From assembly GCF_902833045.1 (NCBI RefSeq), contig NZ_CADFDU010000012.1, positions 169,959 through 233,958 of the forward strand: DNA of 64,000 nucleotides, read 5' to 3'. The notes beneath the pieces were generated by a model. That model was not told where the DNA came from. It was given only the letters and a program-made list of their open reading frames with translations, and ran no database searches. Position numbers and translations under genes: made by a program. Below are positions 33,295-51,085 of the stretch, piece by piece. Each line of letters begins with the position of its first letter. The first letter of the stretch is position 1. Source of the stretch: Burkholderia sp. BCC0322. Its GTDB lineage: Bacteria; Pseudomonadota; Gammaproteobacteria; Burkholderiales; Burkholderiaceae.

Positions 33295-33756
33295 TCAGCG
33301 TTGCACGGGCTTGTGCTTGCAGTGCCCGCACAGGCCGCTCAGCTCGACGACCTGGTGGTGGACTTCGAAGCCGTGCGCGGGCTCGCTCGCGGACAACTGC
33401 TTGGCGAGGTCGCCGCCGGGAATCTCGACGGTGTCGCCGCACGAATCGCAGATCAGGAACTGCCCTTCGTGCGGCACGCCGATCTCGCAGCACGCGAAGA
33501 ATGCGTTCTTCGATTCGATCCGGTGGATGAAGCCGTGCTCGACGAGGAAATCCAGTGCGCGATAGACGGTCGTGGGCGGCACGCGGCCGCGCTGCGGCTC
33601 GAGTTCGGCGAGCAGGTCGTACGCGCCGATCGGGCGTTGCGCGGCCAGCACGTGTTCGTAGACCTGGCGGCGCAGCGGCGTCCACGCGAGCCCGTGCTCG
33701 GCGGCGAATGCGTCGGCCCGGGACAGCCGGGCGTCAATGGACGATGAGGTAGCCAT
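33295..33756 (-). CDS. zur: Fur-family zinc uptake regulator
   Basis: Zinc-responsive repressor. 153 residues with the Fur winged helix (AWTPLRRQVYEHVLAAQRPIGAYDLL, VPPTTVYRALDFLVEHGFIHRI) and two CxxC structural zinc pairs (CDSCGD near 104 and CGHCKH near 145). The position at the head of the znu operon supports Zur over Fur or PerR. ATG 33756 (MATSSSIDARLS) is preferred; the frame is open further upstream over the putative operator. A candidate Zur box lies at 33787-33808. Confidence 0.94.
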   Translation of the reverse strand: MATSSSIDARLSRADAFAAEHGLAWTPLRRQVYEHVLAAQRPIGAYDLLAELEPQRGRVPPTTVYRALDFLVEHGFIHRIESKNAFFACCEIGVPHEGQFLICDSCGDTVEIPGGDLAKQLSASEPAHGFEVHHQVVELSGLCGHCKHKPVQR

Positions 33757-33786
33757 GGCGTGAGGCAGGGCGATGAAACACAGTAC

Positions 33787-33808
33787 GGCGATGATATAAC
33801 GTATCGCC
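33787..33808. promoter_or_regulatory. Candidate Zur box
   Basis: GGCGAT (33787-33792) and ATCGCC (33803-33808) are perfect inverted arms around the AT-rich centre GATATAACGT, which includes ATATAAC as in known Zur boxes. It lies 31 bases before the zur start, the right place for autoregulation of zur-znuACB. Confidence 0.6.
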
Positions 33809-33970
33809 GCGCCGTGCAGCGCGAATTCCCCTTTCCGTCCTCGTTCCGTCCCCTTCATCGCGATTCCGACCGCGCCGCACCGCGCGCGCCGCGCCTTGCC
33901 GGGCGTGCGCGGCGGGCCGCCACGCTGCGCGGTTGTGCCGCAGCGCATCATAGAAAGCCGTCACGCCGCC

Positions 33971-34026
33971 TTGACAGCGCGAATCGCGTATCCGATCATT
34001 CGATCACTACTAGAGCAATTGATCGG
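33971..34026 (+). promoter_or_regulatory. Promoter-operator module of the polyol operon
   Basis: -35 TTGACA (33971-33976), 17-base spacer, -10 GATCAT (33994-33999). Operator halves CGATCATTCGATC (33993-34005) and GAGCAATTGATCG (34013-34025) are separated by 7 bases. The same module, in the same geometry, precedes the arabinitol dehydrogenase gene at 49925-49985. A repressor bound here would cover the -10 box. The start codon of the operon is 60 bases downstream. Confidence 0.8.
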
Positions 34027-34085
34027 TTGGCGAGCGTTCGCTCACCTCGCGGCCGTCGTAAAGCAGAACGAACCGGAGACAGCCA

Positions 34086-34862
34086 GTGAGACTGGAAGAC
34101 AAGGTCGCGATCCTGACGGGCGCCGCAAGCGGCATCGGCGAGGCGGTCGCGCAACGCTATCTGGACGAGGGCGCGCGCTGCGTGCTCGTCGACGTGAAGC
34201 CGGCAGGCGGCTCGCTCGCGCGGCTCATCGATGCGAACCCCGGCCGCGCGGTGGCCGTCACCGCGGACGTCACGCGCCGCGACGACATCGAGCGGATCGT
34301 CACCACGACGGTCGAACGCTTCGGCGGCGTCGACATCCTGTTCAACAACGCGGCGCTGTTCGACATGCGCCCGATCCTCGACGAATCGTGGGACGTGTTC
34401 GACCGGCTGTTCGCGGTCAACGTGAAAGGGCTGTTCTTCCTGATGCAGGCCGTCGCACAGCGGATGGTCGAGCAGGGGCGCGGCGGCAAGATCGTCAACA
34501 TGTCGTCGCAGGCCGGGCGTCGCGGCGAGGCGCTCGTTTCGCACTACTGCGCGACCAAGGCCGCGGTGATCAGCTATACGCAGTCGGCCGCGCTCGCGCT
34601 CGCGCCGCACCGGATCAACGTGAACGGCATCGCGCCGGGCGTCGTCGACACGCCGATGTGGGAACAGGTCGATGCGCTGTTCGCGCGCTACGAGAACCGG
34701 CCGCTCGGCGAGAAGAAGCGGCTGGTCGGCGAAGCCGTGCCGCTCGGCCGCATGGGCGTGCCGGGCGACCTGACCGGCGCCGCATTGTTCCTCGCGTCGT
34801 CCGACGCCGATTACATCACCGCCCAGACGCTGAACGTCGACGGCGGCAACTGGATGAGCTGA
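34086..34862 (+). CDS. Polyol dehydrogenase, short-chain type (sorbitol/galactitol)
   Basis: 258-residue SDR enzyme that oxidises a sugar alcohol to a ketose with NAD+. NAD motif TGAASGIGEAV (~residues 11-21), DVKPAG at the end of strand 2 (NAD choice), NNAALF, catalytic Ser (MSSQAG), Tyr and Lys in HYCATKAAVIS (~Y153, K157). It resembles SmoS/PolS L-iditol 2-dehydrogenase, which converts sorbitol to fructose and galactitol to tagatose. GTG 34086 follows GGAGACAGCC. It is the first gene of the eight-gene operon and lies behind the operator at 33993-34025. Confidence 0.88.
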   Translation: MRLEDKVAILTGAASGIGEAVAQRYLDEGARCVLVDVKPAGGSLARLIDANPGRAVAVTADVTRRDDIERIVTTTVERFGGVDILFNNAALFDMRPILDESWDVFDRLFAVNVKGLFFLMQAVAQRMVEQGRGGKIVNMSSQAGRRGEALVSHYCATKAAVISYTQSAALALAPHRINVNGIAPGVVDTPMWEQVDALFARYENRPLGEKKRLVGEAVPLGRMGVPGDLTGAALFLASSDADYITAQTLNVDGGNWMS

Positions 34863-34958
34863 CATGGCGCCGCTCGCACGCGCCACTTGCCTGCCGGCCT
34901 GCGACGCAGCGGCATGGCCGCACGTCGAGGCCGCCGTCGAACGAGGAGGGCACGCCTG

Positions 34959-35915
34959 ATGGCCGAGATCGTCGTCGCCGGCGAACTGCTCGCCGAATTC
35001 GTCGCCGCCGAGCGCGGCCAGGGTTTCGATGCGCCGGGCCTGTTCGAGGGGCCGTTCCCGAGCGGCGCGCCGGCGATCTTCGCCGACCAGGCCGCGCGGC
35101 TCGGTGCGCGCGTCGCGTACGCGGGCTGCGTCGGCCGCGACGCGTTTGGTGATGCGATCGTCGCGCGGCTCGAACGCGACGGGGTCGACGTCGCGCGCAT
35201 CCGCCGCGTCGCGCGCCCGACCGGCACCGCGTTCGTCGCGTATCGCGACGACGGCTCGCGCAGCTTCGTCTTTAGTCTTTCCACCAGCGCGGCCGCGTGC
35301 GTCGATGCATCCGACGTCGATACCGCGATGTTCGACGGCTGCCGCTACTTCCACGTGATGGGCTCGTCGCTGACGAGCGAATCGGCGATCGCGGCGGTGC
35401 AGCGCGGCGTGATCGAGGCGGCGCGCGCCGGCGCGAAGGTGTCGTTCGATCCGAACGTGCGGCCCGAAATGCTGGCTTTTCGGCCGATGCGCGCGGCGCT
35501 CGACGCGATGCTCGCCGCGTGCCACCTGTTCCTGCCGAGCGAAGCCGACCTGCCGTTCTTCTGCGGGCCTCAGCCTGCCGAGCGCGCGATCGCGGGCCTG
35601 CTCGCGACGCATCCGCTGCTCGAGCGTGTCGTGCTGAAACGCGGCGCGCAGGGCAGCGTCGCGTTCGACCGGGCGAACCGCGTGGAAGCGCCCGCGTTCC
35701 AGGTCGACGAAGTCGATCCGACCGGCGCCGGCGACTGCTTCGGCGGCACGCTGGTCGCGAGCCTCGTCGCGGGCGTGCCGATCGAGATCGCGCTGCGCCG
35801 CGCGAACGCGGCCGGTGCGATCGCGGTCACGCGGCGCGGCCCGATGGAGGGCAACAGCAGTGCAGTCGAAATCGACCGTTTCCTGACCGAACGAGGTATT
35901 GCATGTCCGGCGTGA
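34959..35915 (+). CDS. PfkB-family sugar kinase (probable tagatose or fructose kinase)
   Basis: 318-residue ribokinase-family enzyme. N-terminal VAGELLAEFVA, substrate region FPSGAPAIFADQAARLGARVAYAGCVGRD, FDPNVRPEM and the anion-hole/catalytic signature DPTGAGDCFGG (~residues 258-268, catalytic Asp). In Agrobacterium a PF00294 kinase makes D-tagatose 6-phosphate together with a PF08013 protein, the same pair found here, so tagatose kinase is a good guess; fructokinase or 2-keto-3-deoxygluconate kinase are alternatives. ATG 34959 follows GAGGAGGG. It overlaps the next start by 13 bases. Confidence 0.82.
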   Translation: MAEIVVAGELLAEFVAAERGQGFDAPGLFEGPFPSGAPAIFADQAARLGARVAYAGCVGRDAFGDAIVARLERDGVDVARIRRVARPTGTAFVAYRDDGSRSFVFSLSTSAAACVDASDVDTAMFDGCRYFHVMGSSLTSESAIAAVQRGVIEAARAGAKVSFDPNVRPEMLAFRPMRAALDAMLAACHLFLPSEADLPFFCGPQPAERAIAGLLATHPLLERVVLKRGAQGSVAFDRANRVEAPAFQVDEVDPTGAGDCFGGTLVASLVAGVPIEIALRRANAAGAIAVTRRGPMEGNSSAVEIDRFLTERGIACPA

Positions 35916-37264
35916 CGACCTTCGTCGAGCGTTCGCGCACCGCGCACGCGGACGCCGTGCTGCGGATGATCTTCGACGCGAACCGGGCGGACGCGCAGCG
36001 CGGCATTTACGCGATCTGCAGCGCGCACCGGCTCGTGCTGGAGGCCGCGTGCGAAGCGGCGCGCGCGGACGGCTCGCCGCTGCTGATCGAAGCGACCTGC
36101 AACCAGGTCAACCATCTCGGCGGTTACACGGGCATGACGCCTGCCGATTTCCGCCGTGACGTCGACGCGATCGCGCAGCGTTGCGGGCTTGCCCCGTCGG
36201 CGCTCGTGCTCGGCGGCGACCATCTCGGCCCGAACCCGTGGCGGCATCGCCGCGCGGCCGACGCGATGCGCGAAGCGTGCGCGATGGTCGCCGCGTACGT
36301 CGAAGCCGGTTTCGAAAAGATCCACCTCGATGCGAGCATGGCGTGCGCGGACGATCCGGTGCGGCTCGACGATCGCACGATCGCCGCACGCGCGACCGAA
36401 CTGTGCCGCGTGGCGGAGGACGCGGCGGCCCGCGCCGGCATCGCGCCCGTCTATGTGATCGGCACCGAGGTGCCGACGCCGGGCGGCGAAGTCAGCGGCA
36501 ATACGGGCGAGGCGGGCGACACGGCGATCGCGCGGATCGCGGTCACGCGCAGCGACAGCATCGCGGCGACGCTCGACGCGCACCGCCACGCGTTCGCGGC
36601 TGCCGGTCTCGACCACGCATGGACGCGTGTCGTCGCGATCGTCGCGCAACCGGGCGTCGACTTCGACGATCGCCACGTGCTCGACTACGACAGCACGAAG
36701 GCCGCCTCGCTCGGCGCGAGTATCCTGCAGACACCGCGCCTCGTGTTCGAGGCGCATTCGACCGACTACCAGACCGAGGGCGCACTCGCCGCGCTCGTGC
36801 GCGACCACTTCGCGGTGCTGAAGGTCGGCCCCGCGCTGACGTTCGCGCTGCGCGAGGCGCTGTTCGCGCTGACCTTCATCGAGGACGCGCTGATCGGCGA
36901 GCTCGCGCAGCGCTCGCGGTTGCGCGACGTCGTCGACGCCGCGATGCGCGCGCAGCCCGAGCACTGGGCGCCGTACTACCGTGGCGACGAAGCCGAGCAG
37001 CGGCTCGCGCGCCAGTTCAGCTATAGCGACCGGATCCGCTACTACTGGCTGCAGCCGGCCGTCGCGGCCGCGGTCGAGCAACTGTTCGACAACCTGGCGC
37101 GCCAGCCGGTGCCGGAAACGCTCGTCGCGCAGTGGTTGCCGGACGTGTACGCGGCATGCCGCGCGGGCGGCCTCGCGAAAGAGCCGCGCGCATGGGTGCG
37201 CCACCGGATACGCGACGTGATCGCGCACTATGCGCGCGCGTGCGGAATGCAGCGGCCGGCATGA
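35903..37264 (+). CDS. GatZ/KbaZ-family protein (D-tagatose 6-phosphate 4-epimerase or aldolase subunit)
   Basis: 453-residue TIM-barrel protein of family PF08013. Characteristic segments are GIYAICSAHRLVLEAA, LIEATCNQVNHLGGYTGM, LGGDHLGPNPWR, FEKIHLDASMAC, YVIGTEVPTPGG and VFEAHSTDYQT. Enteric GatZ supports tagatose-bisphosphate aldolase GatY, but no gatY is present here. An Agrobacterium member epimerises D-tagatose 6-phosphate to fructose 6-phosphate, which fits the adjacent PfkB kinase. ATG 35903 lies within the kinase gene (translational coupling). Confidence 0.85.
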   Translation: MSGVTTFVERSRTAHADAVLRMIFDANRADAQRGIYAICSAHRLVLEAACEAARADGSPLLIEATCNQVNHLGGYTGMTPADFRRDVDAIAQRCGLAPSALVLGGDHLGPNPWRHRRAADAMREACAMVAAYVEAGFEKIHLDASMACADDPVRLDDRTIAARATELCRVAEDAAARAGIAPVYVIGTEVPTPGGEVSGNTGEAGDTAIARIAVTRSDSIAATLDAHRHAFAAAGLDHAWTRVVAIVAQPGVDFDDRHVLDYDSTKAASLGASILQTPRLVFEAHSTDYQTEGALAALVRDHFAVLKVGPALTFALREALFALTFIEDALIGELAQRSRLRDVVDAAMRAQPEHWAPYYRGDEAEQRLARQFSYSDRIRYYWLQPAVAAAVEQLFDNLARQPVPETLVAQWLPDVYAACRAGGLAKEPRAWVRHRIRDVIAHYARACGMQRPA

Positions 37265-37322
37265 CGGGCCGCGAGCGAAACGCAGTACCGACGACACTTC
37301 GAAAAAACACAGGAGACATGCC

Positions 37323-38648
<1,326 letters not shown>

Positions 38649-38747
38649 CGCGGCCCGCACCGTGCGCGGTGGCGCACGGTGCGCGTCGTCGAAGCTGAAA
38701 GGCGGGCTGGCCTTCGCGCCCGCGCATCAACCGGAGGGACTCCGATC

Positions 38748-39701
38748 ATGCGTCACCTGCGTCTTCCCCTGAGCCATGCCCACGCGCCGTCGGTCGGCGA
38801 CGCGTCGTCGCCGCCCGGCGCGCCGCGCCGCGCGCGCGGCGGCGCGAGCTGGCTCGTCTCGCCGTCCGTCGCGGTGCTGCTGCTGTGGATGTCGATTCCG
38901 CTCGCGATGACGATCTGGTATTCGTTCTCGCGCTACAACCTGCTGAATCCGGACGTGAAGGGTTTCGCCGGGCTCGACAACTACCGTTTCCTCGCGACCG
39001 ATCCGTCGTTCCTGCCCGCGATCTGGCACACGCTCGTGCTGATCGGCGCGGTGCTCGCGATCACGGTGATCGGCGGCGTGCTGATGTCCGTGCTGTTCGA
39101 CCGCAAGTTCTACGGACAGGGCGTGGCACGCCTGCTCGCGATCGCGCCGTTCTTCGTGATGCCGACGGTATCCGCGCTGATCTGGAAGAACATGATCCTG
39201 CACCCGGTGTACGGGCTCGTCGCGAACGCGATGCGCGCGCTCGGGATGACGCCGATCGACTGGTTCGCGGATTACCCGCTCACCGCGGTGATCATCATCG
39301 TCGCGTGGCAATGGCTGCCGTTCGCGTTCCTGATCCTGTTCACCGCGATCCAGTCGCTCGACCAGGAGCAGAAGGAAGCCGCGCGCATCGACGGCGCGGG
39401 CCCGATCGCGATGTTCTTCTACATCACGCTGCCGCACCTGAAGCGCGCGATCGCCGTGGTCGTGATGATGGAGACGATCTTCCTGCTGTCGATCTTCGCG
39501 GAGATCTACACGACGACCGGCGGCGGCCCGGGCAACGCGACGACCAACCTGTCGTACCTGATCTACGCGCTCGGCCTGCAGCAGTTCGACGTCGGCCTCG
39601 CGTCCGCCGGCGGCATCATCGCCGTGGTGGTCGCGAACGTCGTGTCGTTCTTCCTCGTGCGGATGCTCGCGCGCAACCTGAAGGGAGAGTACGAGAAATG
39701 A
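38748..39701 (+). CDS. Polyol ABC transporter, permease 1 (MtlF/SmoF type)
   Basis: 317-residue inner-membrane protein of the MalF/UgpA family. After a hydrophilic, Ala/Arg-rich N terminus (~40 residues) there are six hydrophobic helices. The EAA loop that contacts the ATPase is EQKEAARIDGAGPIAMFFYI, about residue 210. ATG 38748 follows CCGGAGGGAC. The stop codon overlaps the next start by four bases (ATGA). Confidence 0.94.
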   Translation: MRHLRLPLSHAHAPSVGDASSPPGAPRRARGGASWLVSPSVAVLLLWMSIPLAMTIWYSFSRYNLLNPDVKGFAGLDNYRFLATDPSFLPAIWHTLVLIGAVLAITVIGGVLMSVLFDRKFYGQGVARLLAIAPFFVMPTVSALIWKNMILHPVYGLVANAMRALGMTPIDWFADYPLTAVIIIVAWQWLPFAFLILFTAIQSLDQEQKEAARIDGAGPIAMFFYITLPHLKRAIAVVVMMETIFLLSIFAEIYTTTGGGPGNATTNLSYLIYALGLQQFDVGLASAGGIIAVVVANVVSFFLVRMLARNLKGEYEK

Positions 39702-40549
39702 GCGACCTGACCTCCGAGGGCCGGCGCGTACCGGCCGTGTTCGACCTCGTGCGGCGCGCGCTGCCGGGCGCGCTCGCGTGGCTGATCGCGCTGCTGCTGT
39801 TCTTTCCGATCTTCTGGATGGCGATTACCGCGTTCAAGACCGAGCAGCAGGCGTATGCGTCGACGCTGTTCTTCATGCCGACGCTCGACAGCTTTCGCGA
39901 GGTGTTTGCGCGCAGCAACTACTTCGCGTTCGCGTGGAATTCGGTGCTGATCTCGGCGGGCGTCACGGTGATCTCGCTGCTGTTCGCGGTGCCGGCCGCG
40001 TACGCGATGGCGTTCTTCCCGAATCACCGCACGCAGAAGGTGCTGCTGTGGATGCTGTCGACGAAGATGATGCCGTCGGTCGGCGTGCTCGTGCCGATCT
40101 ACCTGCTGTGGAAGAACGCGGGGCTGCTCGATACGGTGTCGGGCCTCGTGATCGTCTACACGCTGATCAACCTGCCGATCGCGGTGTGGATGACCTTCAC
40201 GTACTTCAACGAGATCCCGAAGGACATCCTCGAAGCCGGGCGCATCGACGGCGCATCGACGTGGCAGGAGATCGTCTACCTGCTGATGCCGATGGCGCTG
40301 CCGGGGCTCGCGTCCACCGCGCTGCTGCTCGTGATCCTGTCGTGGAACGAGGCGTTCTGGAGCATCAACCTGTCGAGCTCGAACGCGGCGCCGCTGACCG
40401 TGTTCATCGCGTCGTACTCGAGCCCCGAAGGATTGTTCTGGGCGAAGCTGTCCGCGGCTTCGCTGCTGGCGGTCGCGCCGATCCTGATCGTCGGCTGGCT
40501 GTCGCAGAAGCAGCTCGTGCGCGGGCTCACGTTCGGAGCGGTCAAATGA
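39698..40549 (+). CDS. Polyol ABC transporter, permease 2 (MtlG/SmoG type)
   Basis: 283-residue MalG-type permease with six hydrophobic helices starting at about residue 25. The EAA loop is KDILEAGRIDGASTWQEIVY (~184-203). It pairs with permease 1. Start ATG 39698 overlaps the upstream stop, and its own stop overlaps the HAD phosphatase start in the same way, showing tight translational coupling through the operon. Confidence 0.94.
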   Translation: MSDLTSEGRRVPAVFDLVRRALPGALAWLIALLLFFPIFWMAITAFKTEQQAYASTLFFMPTLDSFREVFARSNYFAFAWNSVLISAGVTVISLLFAVPAAYAMAFFPNHRTQKVLLWMLSTKMMPSVGVLVPIYLLWKNAGLLDTVSGLVIVYTLINLPIAVWMTFTYFNEIPKDILEAGRIDGASTWQEIVYLLMPMALPGLASTALLLVILSWNEAFWSINLSSSNAAPLTVFIASYSSPEGLFWAKLSAASLLAVAPILIVGWLSQKQLVRGLTFGAVK

Positions 40550-41229
40550 CGACGAACGTACTGATCTGCGATTGCGACGGCGTACTGATCGACAGCGAGG
40601 CGGTGGCCGCCGACGTGCTCGTGCGCGAACTCGATGCGCGCTGGCCGGGCGTCGATGCACGGCCGGCCGTGATGCCGTTGCTCGGGCTGCGCATCGAGCG
40701 CGTGCTGGCCGGCGCGAGCGAGGCCGTCGGGCGCAGGCTGTCGAACGACGACGTGGTCGAAATCCGCGCCGCGGTCGAGGCGGCGGCCGTCAACGCGCCG
40801 ATGGTCGACGGCATCGATGCGGCGCTGGGTGCGATTCAACTGACGACGGCCTGCGCGAGCAACAGCTACCGCGCGTACGTCGAGGCGGCACTGACACGCA
40901 CGGGCCTCGCGCGCTTTTTCGGCGACCGGCTGTTCTGCGCGGATGCCGTCGCGCGGCCGAAGCCGGCGCCCGACGTGTATCTCGCGGCGGCGCGCACGCT
41001 CGGCGTCGCGCCCGCCCAGTGCCTCGTGGTCGAGGACAGCGTGACCGGCATCACCGCGGCCGCCGCGGCCGGCATGACCGTGCTCGGCTTCGTCGGCGGC
41101 GGGCATGCGTCGGCCGCGCAGATCGACGCGCTGCGCGGGATCGGCGCGCGTCACGTATTCGACGACATGCACGAGCTGCCCGGTTACGTCGCGCGCTGGC
41201 AGGCGAGCGGCACGGTGCTGCCGAACTAG
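40546..41229 (+). CDS. HAD-superfamily phosphatase
   Basis: 227-residue HAD subfamily IA hydrolase (beta-phosphoglucomutase-like). Motif I DCDGVLIDSE (nucleophile D9 and acid D11), motif II T/S in TTACASNSYRA, motif III K in ARPKPAPDVY, motif IV VVEDSVTGI. In this operon it could dephosphorylate a sugar or polyol phosphate, for instance as a safety valve against toxic phosphates. The substrate is not known. ATG 40546 overlaps the permease stop. Confidence 0.88.
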   Translation: MTTNVLICDCDGVLIDSEAVAADVLVRELDARWPGVDARPAVMPLLGLRIERVLAGASEAVGRRLSNDDVVEIRAAVEAAAVNAPMVDGIDAALGAIQLTTACASNSYRAYVEAALTRTGLARFFGDRLFCADAVARPKPAPDVYLAAARTLGVAPAQCLVVEDSVTGITAAAAAGMTVLGFVGGGHASAAQIDALRGIGARHVFDDMHELPGYVARWQASGTVLPN

Positions 41230-41291
41230 CAACCACGAACGACTGCGCGCCGCGTTCGGCGCGGCGCATCACGAACGAACGGAGACAGATC

Positions 41292-42401
<1,110 letters not shown>

Positions 42402-42414
42402 CGGTCGGCTTCGG

Positions 42415-43299
42415 TCAGAGGTGCAGGTGCGCGGCCATGTAATCGACGAACGCGCGCAGCTTCGGCGTCGAGTGGCGGCCTGACGGCCACAGCACGTAGA
42501 GCGGCGTGCGGCTCGCGACGTGTTCGTCGAGCACCGCGCGCAGCGCGCCGTCATCGAGCGCGCCGCGCACGAAGAATTCGGGCAGGCACGCGATGCCGAG
42601 CCCGCGCAGCGCGAAGCACAGGCGCGTTTCCGCGTTGTTGCTGACCATCGATACCGGCACGTCCGGCGGCGCGCCCGAGCGCGGCATGCGCAGCGGCCAG
42701 GTTTCGAGCTTGCCGCTGCTCGGGAAGCGGTAATGCAGGCAGCGGTGCCGCGCGAGATCGGCCGGCGCGCGCGGCGTGCCGTGCCGGTCGAGATAGTCGG
42801 GCGATGCGACGAGGTGCTGGCGGAAATGGCCGAGCAGCCGCGACGACAGCCGCGAATCCGACGGCCGGCCGGTGCGCAGCACCGCGTCGAAACCTTCGTC
42901 GACGACGTCGACGAGCCGGTCGCTGAAATCGATGTCGAGTTCGATTTCCGGATACGCGGCCATGAAATCCGCGAGCACCGGCAGCAGCAGCGTGCCGATC
43001 GTCGGCAGGCTCACGCGCAAGCGCCCGCGCGGCGCTTCGGCGCTGTGCGTCAGTTCCCGTTCGGCCGCGTCGATCTCGGCGATCACGCGCCGGCACCGCT
43101 CGAGAAAGCGCGTGCCTTCGGCCGTCAGCGTGATGCTGCGCGTGCTGCGATGAAACAACCGCACGTTCAGGCGCGCCTCGAGCCGCGCGATGCGCTTGCC
43201 GACCGCCGACGCCGACAGCCCGAGCGCGCGGCCGGCCGCGACGAAGCTGCGCGTTTCCGCGACCTGAACGAACACGACGAACCCGCCGAGATTTTCCAT
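42415..43299 (-). CDS. LysR-family transcriptional regulator
   Basis: 294 residues: N-terminal winged helix-turn-helix (FVVFVQVAETRSFVAAGRAL, GLSASAVGKRIARLEARL, residues ~7-45) and a LysR substrate-binding domain (GRLRVSLPTIGTLLLPVL onward). It belongs to the DsdA/CrgA-like branch that controls nearby divergent genes. The divergent serine hydrolase/MFS pair at 43413 is the likely target; the 113-base gap contains the inverted repeat at 43315-43330. Confidence 0.92.
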   Translation of the reverse strand: MENLGGFVVFVQVAETRSFVAAGRALGLSASAVGKRIARLEARLNVRLFHRSTRSITLTAEGTRFLERCRRVIAEIDAAERELTHSAEAPRGRLRVSLPTIGTLLLPVLADFMAAYPEIELDIDFSDRLVDVVDEGFDAVLRTGRPSDSRLSSRLLGHFRQHLVASPDYLDRHGTPRAPADLARHRCLHYRFPSSGKLETWPLRMPRSGAPPDVPVSMVSNNAETRLCFALRGLGIACLPEFFVRGALDDGALRAVLDEHVASRTPLYVLWPSGRHSTPKLRAFVDYMAAHLHL

Positions 43300-43314
43300 G
43301 CAAGTTTCCGATTG

Positions 43315-43330
43315 CGGACGCCAGCGTCCG
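43315..43330. promoter_or_regulatory. Inverted repeat between LysR and serine hydrolase genes
   Basis: CGGACGC-CA-GCGTCCG, seven-base perfect arms, in the divergent gap. It is followed by two CCGGA copies (TCCGGAGTGTCCGGAA, 43327-43342). It is a candidate operator, although it does not have the classic T-N11-A layout. Confidence 0.45.
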
Positions 43331-43412
43331 GAGTGTCCGGAACTCTAACCCGGTTTTTCTCGTTGCGTCGGCCCCCTACGATGGACGCTCGTTCACGCTA
43401 TGAGGTCACGCC

Positions 43413-44609
43413 ATGTCATCCCTGCCTGTTACAGCTTCCCGCGCCGATCCGGACGCCGCGCTGCGCCGCCGGCTCGACGCCGCGCTCGACGCCGCGCTTG
43501 CCGACGAGCGCGTGGTCGGCGCGGTCGTGCTGGTCGCGCGCGACGGCGAGCTGCGCTATGCGCGCGCCGCCGGGCTTGCCGATCGCGAAGCCGGTACGCC
43601 GATGCGGGAAGACGCGCTGTTCCGGCTCGCGTCGGTCACGAAGCCGGTCGTCACGGCCGCCGCGATGCGGCTCGTCGCGGCGGGGCGCATCGCGCTAGAC
43701 GAACCCGTCGCGCGCCGGTTGCCCGAATTCCGTCCGGCGCTGCCCGATGGCGCGCCCGCCGCGATCACGTTGCGCCATCTGCTGTCGCATACGGCCGGCC
43801 TCGGCTACCGCTTTCTCGAAGCCGACGGCGACGGCCCGTATGCGCGCGCCGGCGTGTCCGACGGGATGGATCGCGCGGGCATCTCGCTCGCCGAGAACGT
43901 GCGGCGCATCGCCGGCGTGCCGCTGCAGTTCGCGCCCGGCACGGCGTGGGGCTATTCACTCGCGACCGACGTGGTCGGCGCGCTGATCGAGGCGGTCGAC
44001 GGCCGGCCGCTCGCCGATGCGGTCGCCGCGCTCGTCACGGGGCCGCTCGGGATGACCGACACCGCGTTCGTCGCGCACGACGCCGCGCGTGTCGCGACGC
44101 CTTACGTGAGCACGCCGGGCGCCCCGCGCCGGATGGCCGATATCGATCTCGTGCCGGCGTTCGACGGCACGGTCGGCATCCGCTTCGAACCGGCCCGCGC
44201 GTTCGATCGCGATGCGTGGCCGTCGGGCGGCGCGGGGATGGTCGGCACCGCGCGCGATTGCGTGACGCTGCTCGACGCGCTGCGCACCGGCCGCGACGGC
44301 TGGCTCGAACCCGCGTGGATCGACGAGATGGCGCGCATCCAGCCGGGCGCGCACGAACTGCAGGATGCGCCGGGTTTCGGCTTCGGGTTCGGCTTTTCGG
44401 TGCTGCGCGATCCGGCGGCCGCGCGGTCGCCGGAATCGGTCGGCACCTGGCGCTGGGGCGGCGCTTACGGGCATGCATGGTTCGTCGACCGCGCCGCCGG
44501 GCTGACGGTCGTCGCGCTGACCAACACGCTGTACGAGGGCATGCACGGGCGGATCGTGACCGACGTGCGCGATGCGGTCTACGGCGTCGATACCGGGAGC
44601 GCGTCATGA
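43413..44609 (+). CDS. Serine hydrolase of the beta-lactamase/class C PBP family
   Basis: 398 residues without a signal peptide, therefore probably cytoplasmic. SxxK motif in FRLASVTKPVV (S and K near residues 74-77), a YSL in GYSLATDVVGALIE at the YxN position, and GGAYGHAWFVD at the KTG/HxG position near the C terminus. Relatives include EstB-type esterases and D-aminopeptidase-like enzymes; the substrate is unknown. The MFS gene overlaps by four bases (ATGA), suggesting a hydrolase-exporter pair under the divergent LysR regulator. Confidence 0.87.
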   Translation: MSSLPVTASRADPDAALRRRLDAALDAALADERVVGAVVLVARDGELRYARAAGLADREAGTPMREDALFRLASVTKPVVTAAAMRLVAAGRIALDEPVARRLPEFRPALPDGAPAAITLRHLLSHTAGLGYRFLEADGDGPYARAGVSDGMDRAGISLAENVRRIAGVPLQFAPGTAWGYSLATDVVGALIEAVDGRPLADAVAALVTGPLGMTDTAFVAHDAARVATPYVSTPGAPRRMADIDLVPAFDGTVGIRFEPARAFDRDAWPSGGAGMVGTARDCVTLLDALRTGRDGWLEPAWIDEMARIQPGAHELQDAPGFGFGFGFSVLRDPAAARSPESVGTWRWGGAYGHAWFVDRAAGLTVVALTNTLYEGMHGRIVTDVRDAVYGVDTGSAS

Positions 44610-45823
44610 GCGACTGCACGTCGATCGAGATGGACGATCAAGTTGCCGCCGCGCCCGCGCAGGCACGCGCTCGCCTGCCGGTCGCGAACCTGCTGGCGCT
44701 CGCGACCGCCGCCTTCATCACGATCCTCACCGAGGCGTTGCCGGCCGGCCTGCTGCCGTTGATGAGCGTCGACCTGCGCGTGCCCCAGGCGCTGATCGGC
44801 CAGCTCGTGACCGTGTATGCGCTCGGCTCGATCGTCGCGGCGATTCCGCTCGTCGCCGCGACGCGCGCGATGCGCCGGCGCCGCCTGCTGCTCGCGGCGC
44901 TGGCCGGCTTCGTCGTGTCGAATGCGCTGACGGCCGTGTCGCCGTACTACGCGCTCACGCTCGCCGCGCGTTTCGTCGCGGGGATGGCGGCCGGGCTGCT
45001 GTGGGCATTGCTGGCCGGCTACGCGAGCCGGATGGTCGATGCGTCGCTGCGCGGCCGCGCGATCGCGGTCGCGATGCTCGGCGCGCCGGTCGCGATGTCG
45101 ATCGGTATCCCGGCCGGCACCGCACTCGGCGCGGCCCTGGGGTGGCGTGTTGCGTTCGCGGCCATCACGTTCGCGGCGCTCGCGCTGATCGGCTGGATCC
45201 GCTTGCGCATACCCGATTATCCGGGGCAGCAGGCCGGCGCGCGCGAGCCGGTGCTCGGCGTGATGACGCTGCCCGGCGTGCGGCCGGTGCTGACCGTGAT
45301 GTTCGCGTACGTGCTTGCGCACAACATGCTGTACACATACGTTGCGCCGTTTCTCGCCGGCGTGCGGATGGGTGCGCAGGTCGATGCGGTGCTGCTGGTG
45401 TTCGGTATCGCGTCGCTCGCCGGCATCGCGCTGACGGGCGCGTGGATCGGCGCCGCGCAACGGCGCCTGACGCTCGCCAGCATCGCGCTGTTCGCGCTGG
45501 CGGCGGCGATGCTCGGCGCCGGATCGGGGATGACGATCGTCTATGCGGGCGTCGCGCTGTGGGGGCTCGCGTTCGGCGGCGCGCCGACGCTGTTCCAGAC
45601 CGCTGCCGCGAATGCGGCAGGGGAGTCGGCCGACGTCGCGCAGTCGATGCTCGTGACGGTGTGGAATCTCGCGATCGCCGGTGGCGGCATTGCAGGCGGG
45701 ATGTTGCTCGGCGCAACGGGCGCCGGCGCGATTCCGTGGGTGCTCGTTGCGCTGCTGGCGGCCGCGTGGGTCGGTGCGTGGCGTGCGCGCCGGCATGGGT
45801 TTCCGGCGCCGCGCGCAGCCTGA
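44606..45823 (+). CDS. MFS transporter (drug/sugar exporter type)
   Basis: 405-residue inner-membrane protein with 12 hydrophobic helices starting at about residue 30. The N-terminal FITILTEALPAGLLPLMSVDL and the arginine-rich cytoplasmic loop TRAMRRRRLLL resemble the DHA1 family (AraJ, SotB, YdhP). ATG 44606 overlaps the hydrolase stop. It converges with the SorC-type regulator 16 bases away. Likely an efflux protein, substrate unknown. Confidence 0.88.
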   Translation: MSDCTSIEMDDQVAAAPAQARARLPVANLLALATAAFITILTEALPAGLLPLMSVDLRVPQALIGQLVTVYALGSIVAAIPLVAATRAMRRRRLLLAALAGFVVSNALTAVSPYYALTLAARFVAGMAAGLLWALLAGYASRMVDASLRGRAIAVAMLGAPVAMSIGIPAGTALGAALGWRVAFAAITFAALALIGWIRLRIPDYPGQQAGAREPVLGVMTLPGVRPVLTVMFAYVLAHNMLYTYVAPFLAGVRMGAQVDAVLLVFGIASLAGIALTGAWIGAAQRRLTLASIALFALAAAMLGAGSGMTIVYAGVALWGLAFGGAPTLFQTAAANAAGESADVAQSMLVTVWNLAIAGGGIAGGMLLGATGAGAIPWVLVALLAAAWVGAWRARRHGFPAPRAA

Positions 45824-45839
45824 ACGTTCGGCCGCCGCG

Positions 45840-46796
45840 TCAGTCGGCCTTCGCGTCGAGCGCGGCGCGCGCGCAGGTTTCGTCGGTGACGAGCCCGGAC
45901 AGCCAGCCGCCGCGCAGCGCGGCGATCACCGCGTCGCGTTTCTTCGGGCCGCCGGCGAACGCGATCGTCGGGCGTTTCGGCGGCGCGGCGAGCGATACGC
46001 TCGTCACGCGCGCACTGGTCGACACGTCGATCATCTTGCCGTGCGCGTCGATCGGCATGCCGAGCAGTTCGGCCACCGCGCCGAGCGCGGTCATCTCGTC
46101 GAGTTCCTGTTCGGTGATGAAGCCGTCTTCGTAGAGCGGGCAGTGCGGGCCGGTGTTGCCGATCCCGACGAACGCGACATCGGCCTGGCCCGACAGCGCC
46201 TCGACGATCCGGTACAGCCGGTGATTGCACCACTGCGCGCGTTCGGTGGCGCTGTCGGCGAACAGCGGCGCGGGCAGCAGGAAGTGCTTGCTGCCGGTTT
46301 TCTCGGAGATGTACTGCGCGACGTCGTAGCGGTTCGACGAACCGTCGGCCGCGATCGCGCCGACCATCGACACGAGCCGGTGCTGCGGGCGGTCGATCTG
46401 CGCGATCTGCGCGACTGCTGCCTTCAGCGTCCGGCCGCTGCTGACCGCGATCACCATCGGCCGCGTTTCGCTCAGGTAGCGCTCCATCACCTGCGCGCCG
46501 GCGACCGCGAGCTTGCGGTCGATCGCGTCGGGCGCATCGGCATCGACGGGCACGACTTCGCACATCGCGAGGCCGTAGCGCTTCGACAGTTGCGCGCCGA
46601 GATCGAGGCAGTCGGCGAGCTGATGGTCGACGCGCACGCGGATCAGGTTCTTTTCGACCGCGAACGCGACGAGGCGCTGCGCGACCGGGCGCGACACCTG
46701 CAGCTTTTCCGCGATTTCGTTCTGCGTGTCGCCCGCGACGTAGTAGAGCCACGCGGCACGCGTGGCGAGATCGAGTTTTTCTGAGGACTTGGACAC
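45840..46796 (-). CDS. SorC/DeoR-type sugar-binding transcriptional regulator
   Basis: 318 residues with an N-terminal helix-turn-helix (YYVAGDTQNEIAEKLQVSRP, residues ~18-45) and a large sugar-phosphate-binding domain (VAVSSGRTLKAAV-like segment VIAVSSGRTLKAAVAQ, VGIGNTGPHCPLYEDGF, SVSLAAPPKRPTIAFAGGPKK). It is the same group as DalR/SorC and controls pentitol/hexitol operons. I start it at GTG 46796 (VSKSSEKLDLATRAAW); an upstream ATG at 46853 would add 19 Pro/Arg/Gly-rich residues. It lies downstream of xylB and is the prime candidate for binding the operators at 33993-34025 and 49931-49963. Confidence 0.88.
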   Translation of the reverse strand: MSKSSEKLDLATRAAWLYYVAGDTQNEIAEKLQVSRPVAQRLVAFAVEKNLIRVRVDHQLADCLDLGAQLSKRYGLAMCEVVPVDADAPDAIDRKLAVAGAQVMERYLSETRPMVIAVSSGRTLKAAVAQIAQIDRPQHRLVSMVGAIAADGSSNRYDVAQYISEKTGSKHFLLPAPLFADSATERAQWCNHRLYRIVEALSGQADVAFVGIGNTGPHCPLYEDGFITEQELDEMTALGAVAELLGMPIDAHGKMIDVSTSARVTSVSLAAPPKRPTIAFAGGPKKRDAVIAALRGGWLSGLVTDETCARAALDAKAD

Positions 46797-46918
46797 GATA
46801 GCGATTCGATTCGGATCTGGGGGCCGCCCCGCGGGCCGGCCGATGGGCCGCATGACGGCATCCACTGTACCGCATGTCGCGCAAGCGGCCGACGGCCGCC
46901 ACGCTTGGCTTGCGGCGC

Positions 46919-48400
46919 TTACGCGAGCCGTGTGCGCGACGGTTCGTACAGCGGCCGCACGTGGCGGTACAACGCGCGGAATGCATCGAGGCGTTCGCGC
47001 AGCCGCGCATGGCGGGCGGCATCCGGCGTGTATTCGGCGCGCACCGGCGGCTTGGTCAGCACCGTCTGCGGATCGCCGCCGACGGCCAGCCAGCCGAGCC
47101 GGGCCGCGCCGAGCGCCGCGCCCGTTTCGCCGCCGCCGATCTGGCGCGTGCGCACGTTCAGCGCGTCCGCGATCAGTTGCGCCCAGAACGCGCTGCGTGC
47201 ACCGCCGCCGATCAGCGACAGCCGGTCGGTTTCGACGCCGGCCGCATGCAGCGCGTCGAGACCGTCGGCGAGGCCGAGCGTCACGCCTTCGAGTACCGCG
47301 TAGCCGAGATGCGCACGTTCGGTCGCATGCGTCATCCCGAAGAACACGCCCTGCGCGTACGGATCGTTGTGTGGCGTACGCTCGCCGGACAGGTAGGGCA
47401 GGAACAGCGGCGCCGTCGCGAGCGCGTCGGCGTCGAGCGCCTCGACTTCGGCGAGCAGCGCGGGCTCGTCGGTGCCGGTCAGCTTGCAGACCCAGCGCAG
47501 GCAGCTCGCGGCCGACAGCACGACGCTCATCAATTGCCAGCGATCGGGAATCGCATGGCAGAACGCATGCACGGCCGATGCCGGATTCGGCATGAAACGA
47601 TCGCCGACCACGCTCAGCACGCCCGATGTGCCGAGCGACACGAAGCCGTCGCCCGCTTGGATCGCGCCGATGCCGAGCGCGCTCGTCGCGTTGTCGCCGC
47701 CGCCGCCGGCGACCACGACGGCTTCCGAGAGCCCGAGTTCGCGGGCGATGTCCGCGCGCAGCGTGCCGGACGTCGCATTGCCTTCGACGATGCGCGGCAT
47801 CTGGTCACGCGACATCCCGCACGCGGCGAGCAGCGCATCGGACCAGTCGCGGCGCGCGACATCGAGCCACAGCGTGCCGGCCGCGTCCGACGGATCGGAC
47901 ACCTTCGCGCCGGTCAGCCGGAACCGCAGGTAATCCTTCGGCATCAGCACGCAGGCGGTCGCCGCGAACACGTCGGGTTCGTGCTTCGCGACCCACAGCA
48001 GTTTCGGCGCGGTGAAGCCCGGCATCGCGAGATTGCCGGCGAGGGCGTGGAGATCGGGCGCGCGTTCGGTGAGCAGCGCGCATTCGTCGGCGCTGCGCAT
48101 GTCGTTCCACAGGATCGCGGGGCGCAGCACGCGGTCGTCGCGTCCGAGCAGCACGGCGCCGTGCATCTGGCCCGACAGCCCGATCCCGCGCACGGCCGCG
48201 AACGCCTGGCGGTGCCGTTCGCGCAGGGCCGCGAGCGCGGCGAGCGTGCCTTGCCACCAGTCCTCCGGATGCTGTTCGGCCCAGCGCGGATGCGGCCGCG
48301 ACACGGTGAACGGCGAGCCGGCGGTGCCGACGACCGTGCCGTCCGGGGCGAGCAGCAGCACCTTCACTTCCGAGGTGCCGAGGTCGATGCCGAGATACAT
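46919..48400 (-). CDS. xylB: Xylulokinase
   Basis: Phosphorylates D-xylulose to xylulose 5-phosphate. 493 residues, standard FGGY two-domain kinase: YLGIDLGTSEVKVLLL, GIGLSGQMHGAVLL, PAILWNDMRS (substrate Asp), GGGGDNATSALGIG, FVSLGTSGVLSVV, YLSGERTPHNDPYAQG, LIGGGARSAFWAQLIADAL. These fit XylB closely and better than the kinase at 26844. It follows the arabinitol dehydrogenase gene by 83 bases and precedes the regulator gene, making a D-arabitol to xylulose 5-phosphate route. Confidence 0.95.
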   Translation of the reverse strand: MYLGIDLGTSEVKVLLLAPDGTVVGTAGSPFTVSRPHPRWAEQHPEDWWQGTLAALAALRERHRQAFAAVRGIGLSGQMHGAVLLGRDDRVLRPAILWNDMRSADECALLTERAPDLHALAGNLAMPGFTAPKLLWVAKHEPDVFAATACVLMPKDYLRFRLTGAKVSDPSDAAGTLWLDVARRDWSDALLAACGMSRDQMPRIVEGNATSGTLRADIARELGLSEAVVVAGGGGDNATSALGIGAIQAGDGFVSLGTSGVLSVVGDRFMPNPASAVHAFCHAIPDRWQLMSVVLSAASCLRWVCKLTGTDEPALLAEVEALDADALATAPLFLPYLSGERTPHNDPYAQGVFFGMTHATERAHLGYAVLEGVTLGLADGLDALHAAGVETDRLSLIGGGARSAFWAQLIADALNVRTRQIGGGETGAALGAARLGWLAVGGDPQTVLTKPPVRAEYTPDAARHARLRERLDAFRALYRHVRPLYEPSRTRLA

Positions 48401-48483
48401 GTGCGATCCGTTCCGTCAGTGGGGAGTCGCTACTTTAGCCGCGCGGCCGCGCCCGTGCCAAGGCAGGTTCGCCCGGAGGCGGG

Positions 48484-49878
48484 TCAGCGTGCCGCGAGCC
48501 ATGCGTCGACCCGCGCGAGCCCGGCGCGCAGCGCCTCGAACAGCGCCGCATTGCCGGCGAGCGAGCCCCACAGCGCTCGGCTCGCGCACAGCGCGACGAC
48601 CGGGTCGTCGGCGGCGACGATCGCCCGCGCGGCGCCTTCGTCCATCACGCCGTCCTGGTACGCGTACGGCAAGGTGCCGCGCGCCCAGCGTTCGAGAAAG
48701 CGCAGGAACAGCGCGGGCAGCACGGCGGTGGCGACCGGCGCCGCGCCGCGTGCGAACGATTCGACGAGCGTCGGCGCGATGAAGCCGGGGATCTTCGAGA
48801 AGCCGTCGGCCGCGACGCGCTGGTTCGTGTCGAGGACGTACGGGTTGCCGAAGCGCTCGAGCACGACGTCGCGGTAGCGCGCGAGATCGAGCGGGCTCGG
48901 CGTGAGGCACGGGATCACGTCCTGCGTCACGTAGTCGTGCGCGAAGCGCTGGATCGCCGCGTCCTGCGTGCCTTCGTGAATGTAGGTGTAGCCCGCGAGC
49001 GTGCCGGCCCACGCGATGCAGCTGTGCGTCGCGTTGAGGATGCGGATCTTCGCTTCCTCGTACGGGTGCACGTCGTCGACGAGTTCGGCGCCGGCCAGCT
49101 CCCAGCGCGGCCGGCCGGCCGCGAAGCGGTCCTCGATCACCCACTGGATGAACGATTCGCCCATCACCGGGCAAGCGTCGTCGATGCCGGTGGCGGCCAG
49201 CACGCGTTCGCGCACGTCGGCGGTCGGGCGCGGCGTGATGCGGTCGACCATCGCGCTCGGCGTGGCGACGTTCGCATCGAACCACGCGAGCAGGTCGGCC
49301 TGCCCGCGCCGTTCGAGGAATTCGCGCATCCCCGCGCGAAAGCGCGCGCCGTTGTTGCGCAGGTTGTCGCAGCTCTGCAGCGTGAGCGGGCCCGCGCCGC
49401 GCTTCACGCGTTCGGCGAGCAGCGCCGCGAGCGCGCCGTACAGCGTCGTGCGCGCGCCTTGCAGATCGGCCGCGAGATCGGCGTTCGCGATGTCGAGCCG
49501 GTTGTGTTCGTCGAGGTAGTAGCCGCCTTCGGTGACGGTGAACGACACGATCCGGCAGGCCGGATCGGCGCCGGCGTCGATCAGCGCGGCGAGGTCGATC
49601 GACCACGGCAGCACGCGCGTGATCGCCCGGATCGTCTCGTACGCGCGTTCGCCTTGCGGCGTGACGGTTTCGAGCGTGTAGGCGCCGTGCTGCGCGGCGA
49701 GTGCGTCCATCGTCGCGTGCATGTCGTCGCGGATGTTGCCGACGGTCAGCGACCAGCGCTCGTCGGCCGGTACGGCCGCGTTCACGCGATGCAGATACCA
49801 CGCCTGGTGCGCGCGGTGAAACGAGCCCGCGCCGATGTGCAGCAGCACGGGCGTGCGGGCGGAGGGCGATGCGCTCAT
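48484..49878 (-). CDS. dalD: D-arabinitol 4-dehydrogenase / mannitol dehydrogenase family
   Basis: 464-residue long-chain polyol dehydrogenase. N-terminal NAD domain ([19 protein letters not shown], then [10 protein letters not shown]), [19 protein letters not shown], and the C-terminal catalytic segment [20 protein letters not shown] (K and H of the KxxxxNxxH motif). Length and the xylB partner favour D-arabitol to D-xylulose (DalD); mannitol to fructose is an alternative since the families overlap. ATG 49878 follows CAGGAGACACCGG. First gene of the minus-strand polyol unit, behind the operator 49925-49969. Confidence 0.88.
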
Positions 49879-49908
49879 CCGGTGTCTCCTGTTCGTGCCT
49901 GACTGTCC

Positions 49909-49922
49909 GGTCGCATGCGACC
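49909..49922. repeat. 14-base perfect palindrome in the dalD leader
   Basis: GGTCGCATGCGACC lies between the dalD operator and its start codon. It could be a second binding site or a leader hairpin. Confidence 0.5.
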
Positions 49923-49924
49923 GA

Positions 49925-49985
49925 CGAATACGATCATTTGCTCTTTGTGTGAGCGAATGATCGTATTCGGGCGAGCGAAAGTCAA
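49925..49985 (-). promoter_or_regulatory. Promoter-operator module of the dalD-xylB-regulator unit
   Basis: Read on the minus strand: -35 TTGACT (49985-49980), 17-base spacer, -10 GATCAT (49962-49957). Two 19-base arms, 49925-49943 and 49951-49969, are inverted repeats with a single mismatch and a 7-base spacer; the core CGATCATT/AATGATCG is shared with the module at 33971-34026. From GATCATTCG to TGATCG, 26 of 32 bases are identical between the two sites on the coding strands. Confidence 0.85.
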
Positions 49986-50076
49986 GGCGGGGAAACCGCA
50001 TTTCGATGGTGCGCTGCGGTGGCGGCGCGGGCAGGGCGGGGCGCGCGCGAACGGGCGGCCGGTGCGCGAAGTGCCG

Positions 50077-50988
50077 TCAGCGTCCTTCGCGCGTCAACGC
50101 GACGAGTTCGTCGAGCAGCTTGCCGGCCGGCCCCGGCAGGATGCCGTGGCGGCGCCGGAACGCGGTGAGCGTGCGTACCGCGACGACCTCGCGCACCGGC
50201 AGCGTGTCGATCGTGCCGGCGCGCTGCTCGGCACCGTACATCGGCTCGGCCATCCAGCTGAGGAAGCCCGCATGCGCGACGAGGCTCTTCAACGTTGTGA
50301 CCGAGCGCGTCTCGACCGCGATGTCGGGCAGCGCGAGCCCGTCCGCGTCGAAGGTCGCGCGCATGTGGTCGAACGGCGCGGTGCCGCGCGGCGGAATCGC
50401 CCAGCGCGCGTGCAGCGTATCGGCGAGCGTCGGCGCGCGGCCGAGCGCGCGCAGCGGATGGTGCGGCGCCGCAACGATATGGCTGCGATCTTCCCAGCGG
50501 CACTCGGGAATCGCGACGATCTCGTCGGTGTCGGGCCCGTGCGCGGACAGCGCGAGATCGATCTCGTGCTTGTTCAGCCCTTCCGCGAGCCGGTCCCACA
50601 CGCCTTCGATGATCTCGACGCGCAGGTTCGGCCAGCGGTCGAGCACGCGGCCCACCGCGACCGGCAGCACGAGGCTCGCGATGCTGCCCACCGTGCCGAC
50701 CTTGATCGTGCCCTTCGCGAACCCGCGCATCGCGTCGAGCTCCTCGCGCGCGTGCTCGGCCTCGTGCTGCAGCAGCGTCGCGTGCGGCAGCAGCGCCTCG
50801 CCGAACGCGGTCAGCTGCACGCCCTTCGAGTGACGCTCGAACAACGGCGCACCGACCTGGTCCTCGAGCCGCTTCAGGATCCGGCTCAGCGCCGGCTGGG
50901 TCACGTGCAGCGCGTCGGCCGCGCGGCCGAGGCTGCCGCACGCGACGATCGTCGTGAAGGCGCGCAATTGTCGGAGATCGAAAGTCAT
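50077..50988 (-). CDS. LysR-family regulator of the benzoylformate genes
   Basis: 303 residues with an N-terminal helix-turn-helix (LRQLRAFTTIVACGSLGRAA, HVTQPALSRILKRLEDQV, residues ~4-45) and a LysR effector domain (GTIKVGTVGSIASLVLPVAV onward). It diverges from the decarboxylase gene across 97 bases holding the inverted repeat 51019-51053, so it probably senses mandelate, benzoylformate or a related aromatic acid. ATG 50988 is the family-like start (MTFDLRQLRAF). Confidence 0.92.
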   Translation of the reverse strand: MTFDLRQLRAFTTIVACGSLGRAADALHVTQPALSRILKRLEDQVGAPLFERHSKGVQLTAFGEALLPHATLLQHEAEHAREELDAMRGFAKGTIKVGTVGSIASLVLPVAVGRVLDRWPNLRVEIIEGVWDRLAEGLNKHEIDLALSAHGPDTDEIVAIPECRWEDRSHIVAAPHHPLRALGRAPTLADTLHARWAIPPRGTAPFDHMRATFDADGLALPDIAVETRSVTTLKSLVAHAGFLSWMAEPMYGAEQRAGTIDTLPVREVVAVRTLTAFRRRHGILPGPAGKLLDELVALTREGR

Positions 50989-51018
50989 GACGGAATGGTA
51001 TGGCTTATCGCAGAAAAT

Positions 51019-51053
51019 ACAGTATCCGAGAATGGCTTGCGCTTCGATACTGT
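51019..51053. promoter_or_regulatory. Inverted repeat in the LysR/mdlC divergent region
   Basis: ACAGTATC (51019-51026) and GATACTGT (51046-51053) are perfect 8-base inverted arms with a 19-base spacer. It lies 33 bases upstream of the decarboxylase start and 31 bases from the LysR start. ATAC-rich arms suit a LysR recognition/activation site. Confidence 0.6.
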
Positions 51054-51085
51054 GGAAACCGCCAAGCCATCGAGGAGCGCCGAGC

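Follow-up and report, generated by a model that had tools for sequence, protein, structure and literature searches.

Which protein controls the polyol genes of a Burkholderia locus, and what does it read at their promoters? In a 64,000-nucleotide stretch of DNA from Burkholderia sp. BCC0322 (contig NZ_CADFDU010000012.1, positions 169,959 to 233,958; the whole stretch is called the window here), a polyol ATP-binding cassette (ABC)-transporter/dehydrogenase operon (operon 1) and a unit headed by the D-arabinitol 4-dehydrogenase gene dalD are preceded by near-identical promoters. An earlier note on this DNA had proposed that a SorC-type protein encoded at 45840-46796 acts on both through a long inverted repeat. 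Comparison across genomes gives good support to a shared SorC-type regulon, and an autoregulated SorC/DeoR-subfamily repressor of the polyol regulon very probably controls both units. The operator is more aptly viewed as a phased array of dyads, of which operon 1 carries a third.

Promoter-operator modules of the two units

The modules in the window comprise the following elements.

33971-34043, + strand: operon-1 promoter-operator module, near-identical to the dalD module
33971-33999, + strand: operon-1 promoter, with -35 TTGACA (33971-33976), a spacer of 17 base pairs (bp) and -10 GATCAT (33994-33999); conserved across homologous loci
33994-34025, + strand: operon-1 operator, 32 bases compared with the dalD operator
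33994-34005, + strand: operon-1 dyad 1, GATCATTCGATC, which includes the -10
34013-34024, + strand: operon-1 dyad 2, GAGCAATTGATC
34032-34043, + strand: operon-1 dyad 3, GAGCGTTCGCTC, 19 bp after dyad 2 and overlooked in the earlier note
49931-49985, - strand: dalD promoter-operator module, near-identical to the operon-1 module
49957-49985, - strand: dalD promoter, with -35 TTGACT (49985-49980), a 17-bp spacer and -10 GATCAT (49962-49957); conserved across homologous loci
49962-49931, - strand: dalD operator
49951-49962, - strand: dalD dyad 1, GATCATTCGCTC, which includes the -10
49932-49943, - strand: dalD dyad 2, GAGCAAATGATC

The common architecture first described for the two promoters, TTGAC(A/T), a 17-base spacer and GATCAT, is present at both places, and a recount of the two operators from GATCATTCG to TGATCG gave the same values as before, with 26 of 32 bases identical and a 7-base centre in both. 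GATCAT opens the first dyad at both promoters, so that the -10 does sit within the operator as had been claimed. In operon 1, 10 of the 16 facing positions of the 33-mer form pairs, and in dalD 12 do.

A further stretch common to both promoters, missed in the first reading, lies about 15 bases before the -35 (CGCAGCGCA[T/C]CAT[A/C]GAAA; 33938-33956 on the + strand and 50001-50018 on the - strand), and its CATCGAAA portion is seen again in many homologous loci. This shared stretch may be an UP element or the site of a second regulator.

The operator as a phased array of dyads

The operator is not the single long inverted repeat that had been proposed. Each arm of that repeat is itself an imperfect 12-bp dyad, in which GA[TGA]C[AG] stands two bases before its mirror image, and these dyads recur every 19 bp, twice at dalD and three times at operon 1. 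In a register scan with sites sorted by the letter of the -35, a sorting that placed a few dalD sites in the operon-1 set, mean scores in both sets peaked at offsets 0 and 19. A peak at offset 38, with a mean of 9.4 of 10 compared with 3.8 at other offsets, was confined to operon 1. The half-site scheme was derived from the first two dyads, leaving the third dyad alone as an independent test; for this count sites were sorted by downstream gene into 83 distinct operon-1 sites and 103 dalD sites. A third dyad scoring 9-10 of 10 was present at 79 of the operon-1 sites and at none of the dalD sites, and shuffled downstream sequence attains a score of 9 in approximately 0.1% of trials. The four operon-1 exceptions comprise two loci of genus g16, in which the genes form one run, and two sites scoring 8.

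Inner, outer and third half-sites all show the same variation (T, G or A) at their third base, which would be expected of elements read by a single protein domain. The dyads also follow the SorC-family operator pattern of two half-operators, each with two recognition elements and some 20-24 bp apart, with a period here of 19 bp; the spacing within each dyad is tighter than in DeoR, and the regulator would read the dyads in this arrangement. A DeoR-like pairing of the two inner half-sites, which are 12 bp apart, was considered and is less favoured. The fifth and sixth half-sites are jointly present in operon 1 and jointly absent in dalD, for which reason the 12-bp dyad is tentatively preferred as the unit.

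Position of the array relative to the promoter

Over 171 loci a set of 206 pattern matches was collected (190 distinct contexts); repeated contexts, matches close to a locus end and those with no TTGACA-like -35 at a distance of 17 bases were excluded from the site counts. A -35 of this kind precedes all 206 by 17 bases, one further match was too close to an end, and the only matches away from these were the site in locus L052 and that in L110, near its contig end. The -35 entry condition therefore selects little, since nearly all matches in the 171 loci have a -35 at this distance. GATCAT opens the first dyad, 17 bases after the -35, in 103/103 dalD sites and 79/83 operon-1 sites, the others having GATTAT (three) or GATGAT (one). 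All dyads lie from the -10 downstream and together extend over the -10, the expected start and the bases transcribed first. Because the first dyad holds the -10 and the array covers the expected start, occlusion would be the simplest mechanism of repression.

This placement also bears on the idea that the SorC-type protein acts at these sites as an activator or in a dual role, which is unlikely. A related DeoR-type protein of Sinorhizobium meliloti, EryD, is consistent with both positive and negative action according to excerpts of PMC10433430, but a protein bound from the -10 downstream would block polymerase, and the nearer functional analogue SmoC, a DeoR-type regulator of an S. meliloti polyol locus, is described in the same excerpts as a negative regulator.

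Co-occurrence of operator and regulator across genomes

The motif search suggested in the earlier note was made in 65 Burkholderia genomes with a 33-base pattern, up to 3 mismatches and the reversed pattern as control. Two operator places were found in 62 of the 65, one in a genome that is 82% complete and none in two, and the reversed pattern had no match in any of the 65. The regulator was likewise found in 62/65, and the three genomes without it are the two site-free ones and the 82%-complete one-site genome. Among the 62 Burkholderia genomes with a PF04198 protein over cut-off, the orthologue is the sole such protein in 55, and seven have more. In the nearest genome, G001, both sites are present, 16.0 kb apart. 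Conservation upstream of orthologous operons also held, the modules preceding operon-1 and dalD genes across homologous loci (83 and 103 distinct sites, respectively).

The comparison was extended to 299 genomes of the family, including many of the same Burkholderia, using a slightly shorter pattern and a regulator homologue cut-off of E 1e-60, and the two tables were compared by hand. The motif was present in 133 genomes (control 0) and a regulator homologue in 147: 132 genomes had both, one (G304) the motif only, 15 the regulator only and 151 neither. All 15 regulator-only genomes have a diverged regulator, with identities of 61-63% in genus g15, 55-57% in g24 and 36-39% in g21, and in four of the 132 (G210, G225, G250 and G260) there were partial regulator matches only. 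Five motif-free genomes of motif-bearing genera (G017, G042, G179, G140 and G196) are without a close DalD or binding-protein orthologue, G140 having a 36% DalD-like protein, and a sixth, G215, has no DalD and a binding protein in pieces only. The shorter pattern gave an extra (third) match at 3 mismatches in three Burkholderia genomes (G007, G035 and G043). Among 300 genomes of the order eight matched, of which four are family members and the other four are single matches at 3 mismatches. Motif and regulator co-occur genome by genome, in agreement with the claim that one operator type on both units is tied to the SorC-type gene.

Other regulators are encoded nearby, namely LysR1 (42415-43299), LysR2 (50077-51183), which is next upstream of dalD, and a Fur-like protein (33295-33951) divergent from operon 1. 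It is very unlikely that one of these binds the operator and that SorC controls something else, as the whole-genome presence of the motif follows the SorC orthologue. In 57 loci fetched around the regulator, limited to about 20 kb and with two g16 genomes represented twice, the numbers with a homologue at >50% identity are 4 for LysR1, 6 for LysR2 and 20 for the Fur-like gene, although the 20-kb limit may explain some Fur-like absences. The same loci delimit the regulon: the whole 34-50 kb region had been taken as one regulon, but because LysR1 and a beta-lactamase-fold gene, which lie between the units, occur in just 4 and 2 loci of the 57, respectively, it is reduced to two predicted transcription units.

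GATC is frequent in the outer half-sites, as it might be if these repeats were a DNA-methylation or sequestration signal. That explanation is barely credible: the dalD inner and operon-1 third half-sites are mostly GAGC, many right outer half-sites have GAGC or GAAC instead of GATC, and occurrence is restricted to two places per genome in 62/65.

One site or none, together with partial or interrupted regulator or binding-protein matches, was observed in G210, G225, G250, G260, G304 and G215, which belong to genus g10 and have genomes of 2.8-4.2 Mb. On these sequences the regulon in the small g10 genomes looks to be decaying.

The regulator and its relatives

By its sequence matches the regulator is a member of the SorC/DeoR subfamily, since it has a PF04198 C-terminal sugar-binding effector domain (182.7 bits, cut-off 27), near full-length matches in the PDB to LsrR, DeoR and SorC, and a match of residues 27-79 to the isolated DeoR DNA-binding domain (7bhy, E 6e-8). 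The best full-length PDB match is Escherichia coli LsrR (4go1, E 1e-28), and CggR matches the effector domain only. The N-terminus is a short homeodomain-like helix-turn-helix (approximately 50-60 residues are expected for the subfamily) and not the CggR winged helix, and the DNA-binding helix region is almost invariant in sampled rows of motif-bearing genera (14 rows including the window).

The statements on DeoR, CggR and the LsrR assembly that follow draw on excerpts of PMC11229326. DeoR and CggR bind DNA as tetramers, with one dimer per half-operator, and have sugar phosphates as effectors; LsrR also forms tetramers. Spacings calculated here from the operator sequences printed in that paper give a dyad repeat of 20 bp for CggR and 22-24 bp for DeoR, not far from the 19 bp in Burkholderia, and within-dyad half-site centres 9-11 bp apart in DeoR/CggR versus 7 bp in Burkholderia. 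We conjecture that, if contacts centre on the outermost bases, the Burkholderia spacing would be about 9/10/9, near that of CggR.

Bacillus subtilis DeoR with its dra-nupC-pdp operator (PDB 8r7y, 7bhy) is alike in subfamily, in its full-length and DNA-binding-domain sequence matches, and in having a four-half-site operator that is read by a tetramer and overlaps the promoter. Its operator lies at -60 to -21, however, with a poorly conserved right half and wider half-site spacing, whereas the Burkholderia array begins at the -10, with half-sites that are all clear and number six at one promoter. B. subtilis CggR with its gapA operator (PDB 8r3g) also has two dyads, at 20 bp, with a dimer on each forming a tetramer, and is encoded in its own operon; it differs in its winged-helix DNA-binding domain and in an operator downstream of the start (+32 to +77), for which the excerpts mention no third dyad. 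The smo locus of S. meliloti resembles the present one in that excerpts of PMC10433430 place the DeoR-type regulator SmoC beside a polyol ABC transporter and sorbitol and mannitol dehydrogenases. There smoC is transcribed alone, whereas the Burkholderia regulator stands at the end of the dalD unit, and the word 'operator' is absent from the text of PMC10433430. LsrR, although the best full-length match and assembling as a tetramer, governs autoinducer 2 (AI-2) quorum-sensing genes and not polyols; the likeness described here is that of the proteins. The switch appears to be a well-conserved, new instance of the SorC-type switches already known. No description of the operator or of a SorC-type polyol regulator of Burkholderia was found in titles and abstract openings of open-licence PMC papers, to which the search was confined.

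A model for control of both units

The two units bearing the shared operator between them contain polyol dehydrogenase, sugar kinase and carbohydrate ABC transporter genes. From the sites, their architecture and conservation, and the genome-by-genome link to the regulator and its genes, we infer the following scheme of binding, repression, oligomeric state, co-transcription and induction. When no inducer is present, regulator dimers joined via their effector domains would bind the phased 12-bp dyads covering the -10 and the start, and the bound repressor would shut down two operons, the one for the polyol ABC transporter and dehydrogenase (34086-42401) with its three dyads and dalD-xylB-sorC (49878-45840) with its two. 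The repressor would be autoregulated because its gene is in the second of these. The genes dalD, xylB and that of the regulator lie on one strand and in the same direction behind the dalD operator as a predicted single unit, and if they form one transcript this run places the regulator under its own operator. The inducer would be formed inside the cell during polyol catabolism and is probably a ketose phosphate (for example D-xylulose 5-phosphate, D-fructose 6-phosphate or D-tagatose 6-phosphate); it would loosen the assembly so that both units are made together.

Several points weigh against this model. The sigma-70 -10 consensus is TATAAT, and GATCAT agrees with it at 4/6 positions only. Repressor binding is predicted from sequence comparison, and because the genomes compared are related, their co-occurrence counts cannot be treated as independent. 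As the regulator was the anchor for fetching the 57 synteny loci, its presence in them is by construction, and the argument therefore rests on the whole-genome tables. G304 retains a site without the regulator, its transporter binding-protein gene being in pieces. The most diverged regulators, those of g21 (36-39% identity), are without a recognisable array in the four g21 loci scanned, and the g15 arrays score no better than 27/1000 shuffles. Half-site centres are spaced 7/12/7 bp here versus approximately 11/13/9 in DeoR and 10/10/10 in CggR, so that more than one choice of half-sites by a dimer is conceivable.

Gene order and modules in other genera

In g24 and g15 the transporter genes, dalD and xylB are in one run, with the regulator divergent from the start of the run in g24 and convergent at its end in g15. 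Before the first gene, all 10 of the 10 loci from these genera have TTGACA, followed after 17 (g24) or 18 (g15) bases by GATTAT or GATCAT (in one locus AATTAT), together with an array-like stretch. The g24 pair scores 17-18 of 20, where 6/1000 shuffles reach 17 and none 18. The g15 pair scores 16, which 27/1000 shuffles reach and which is equalled elsewhere in the same stretches, so that promoter and position carry most of the g15 case. The g16 genes, that of the regulator among them, are all in one run behind one module that lacks the third dyad, whereas Burkholderia and four other genera (g10, g13, g20 and g25) have two units with a module before each. In a tree of the regulator the one-run genera g15 and g24 fall outside the two-unit genera and one-run g16 is nested inside them (98/92 support), and the dalD tree likewise places g16 inside. 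Because g16 nests among two-unit genera, refusion or two separate splits would both be possible on these trees.

These gene orders raise the further explanation that the two promoters are a mere duplication from an operon split, with an operator that is not under selection. The single runs of g15, g24 and g16 fit such an origin, as does the continuation of the similarity between the two promoters upstream of the -35, but this explanation is most improbable given that the array is kept almost base for base while the 7-base centres, spacers and flanks differ among genera, and that the third dyad is retained in operon 1 only.

A further copy of the module, in each case TTGACA-17-GATCAT, lies before another short-chain dehydrogenase/reductase (SDR) gene (approximately 30% identity) in 4 of 11 g25 genomes (loci L178, L179, L181 and L186); this gene is possibly a regulon member gained in that genus. 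In g24 loci L077-L083 the intergenic region between the genes for SorC and the solute-binding protein has a second dyad-like element (GAGCATTTGCTT in L078) that overlaps the -35 of the transporter promoter and possibly serves the divergent regulator promoter.

As a tentative extension of the model, doubtful as a whole, the operator could be an extendable phased array on which dimers on 12-bp dyads every 19 bp are linked via effector domains, with dyad number (two at dalD, three at the transporter operon) setting the strength and order of repression. The -35/17-bp/-10/dyad module would also be a portable cassette, of which one copy arose as a single ancestral operon divided into two convergent units and another as a different genus took up a further dehydrogenase gene.

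The array provides a genus-wide, clear candidate operator for a SorC/DeoR-subfamily protein, with four half-sites at the dalD promoter and six at that of operon 1, in contrast to the poorly matching right half of the DeoR operator, and such clear half-sites make it possible to test directly how dimers are assigned and how oligomers assemble on DNA. The loci also form a natural series for regulon splitting with control kept, from one run with one module through two units with two modules to a third unit in another genus. For Burkholderia annotation, the transporter operon and the dalD-xylB-sorC unit are tied into one predicted regulon.

Gene content of the two units

The genes of the two units in the window are as follows.

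34086-34862, + strand: SDR polyol dehydrogenase (L-iditol 2-dehydrogenase model NF005472, over cut-off)
34887-35915, + strand: PfkB-family kinase (top NCBIfam match tagatose kinase, under the model's cut-off)
35903-37264, + strand: GatZ/AgaZ-type D-tagatose-bisphosphate aldolase non-catalytic subunit (TIGR02810, over cut-off)
37323-38648, + strand: ABC transporter solute-binding protein (family scan used a longer open reading frame (ORF) from 37230)
38748-39701, + strand: ABC transporter permease 1 (family scan used a longer ORF from 38679)
39698-40549, + strand: second ABC permease, assigned by position and gene order (homologues in 53/57 loci)
40546-41229, + strand: HAD-family sugar phosphatase-like protein (family scan used a longer ORF from 39778)
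41292-42401, + strand: ABC transporter ATPase, UgpC/MalK-like
45840-46796, - strand: SorC/DeoR-subfamily regulator, proposed repressor of both units (ORF extendable to 46865; homologue alignments begin at the 46796 start)
46919-48400, - strand: XylB xylulokinase (TIGR01312, over cut-off)
48484-49878, - strand: DalD D-arabinitol 4-dehydrogenase (NF043014, over cut-off)

The second permease had no family match of its own at the 1e-40 threshold. The Fur-family regulator gene divergent from operon 1 is on the - strand, its homologues being those found in 20 of the 57 loci. Among the nine genera fetched, the PfkB kinase and GatZ-type genes (34887-37264) are part of operon 1 in Burkholderia only, being present in 10 of 11 Burkholderia loci with the eleventh locus cut, which suggests that they represent an added tagatose/galactitol branch.

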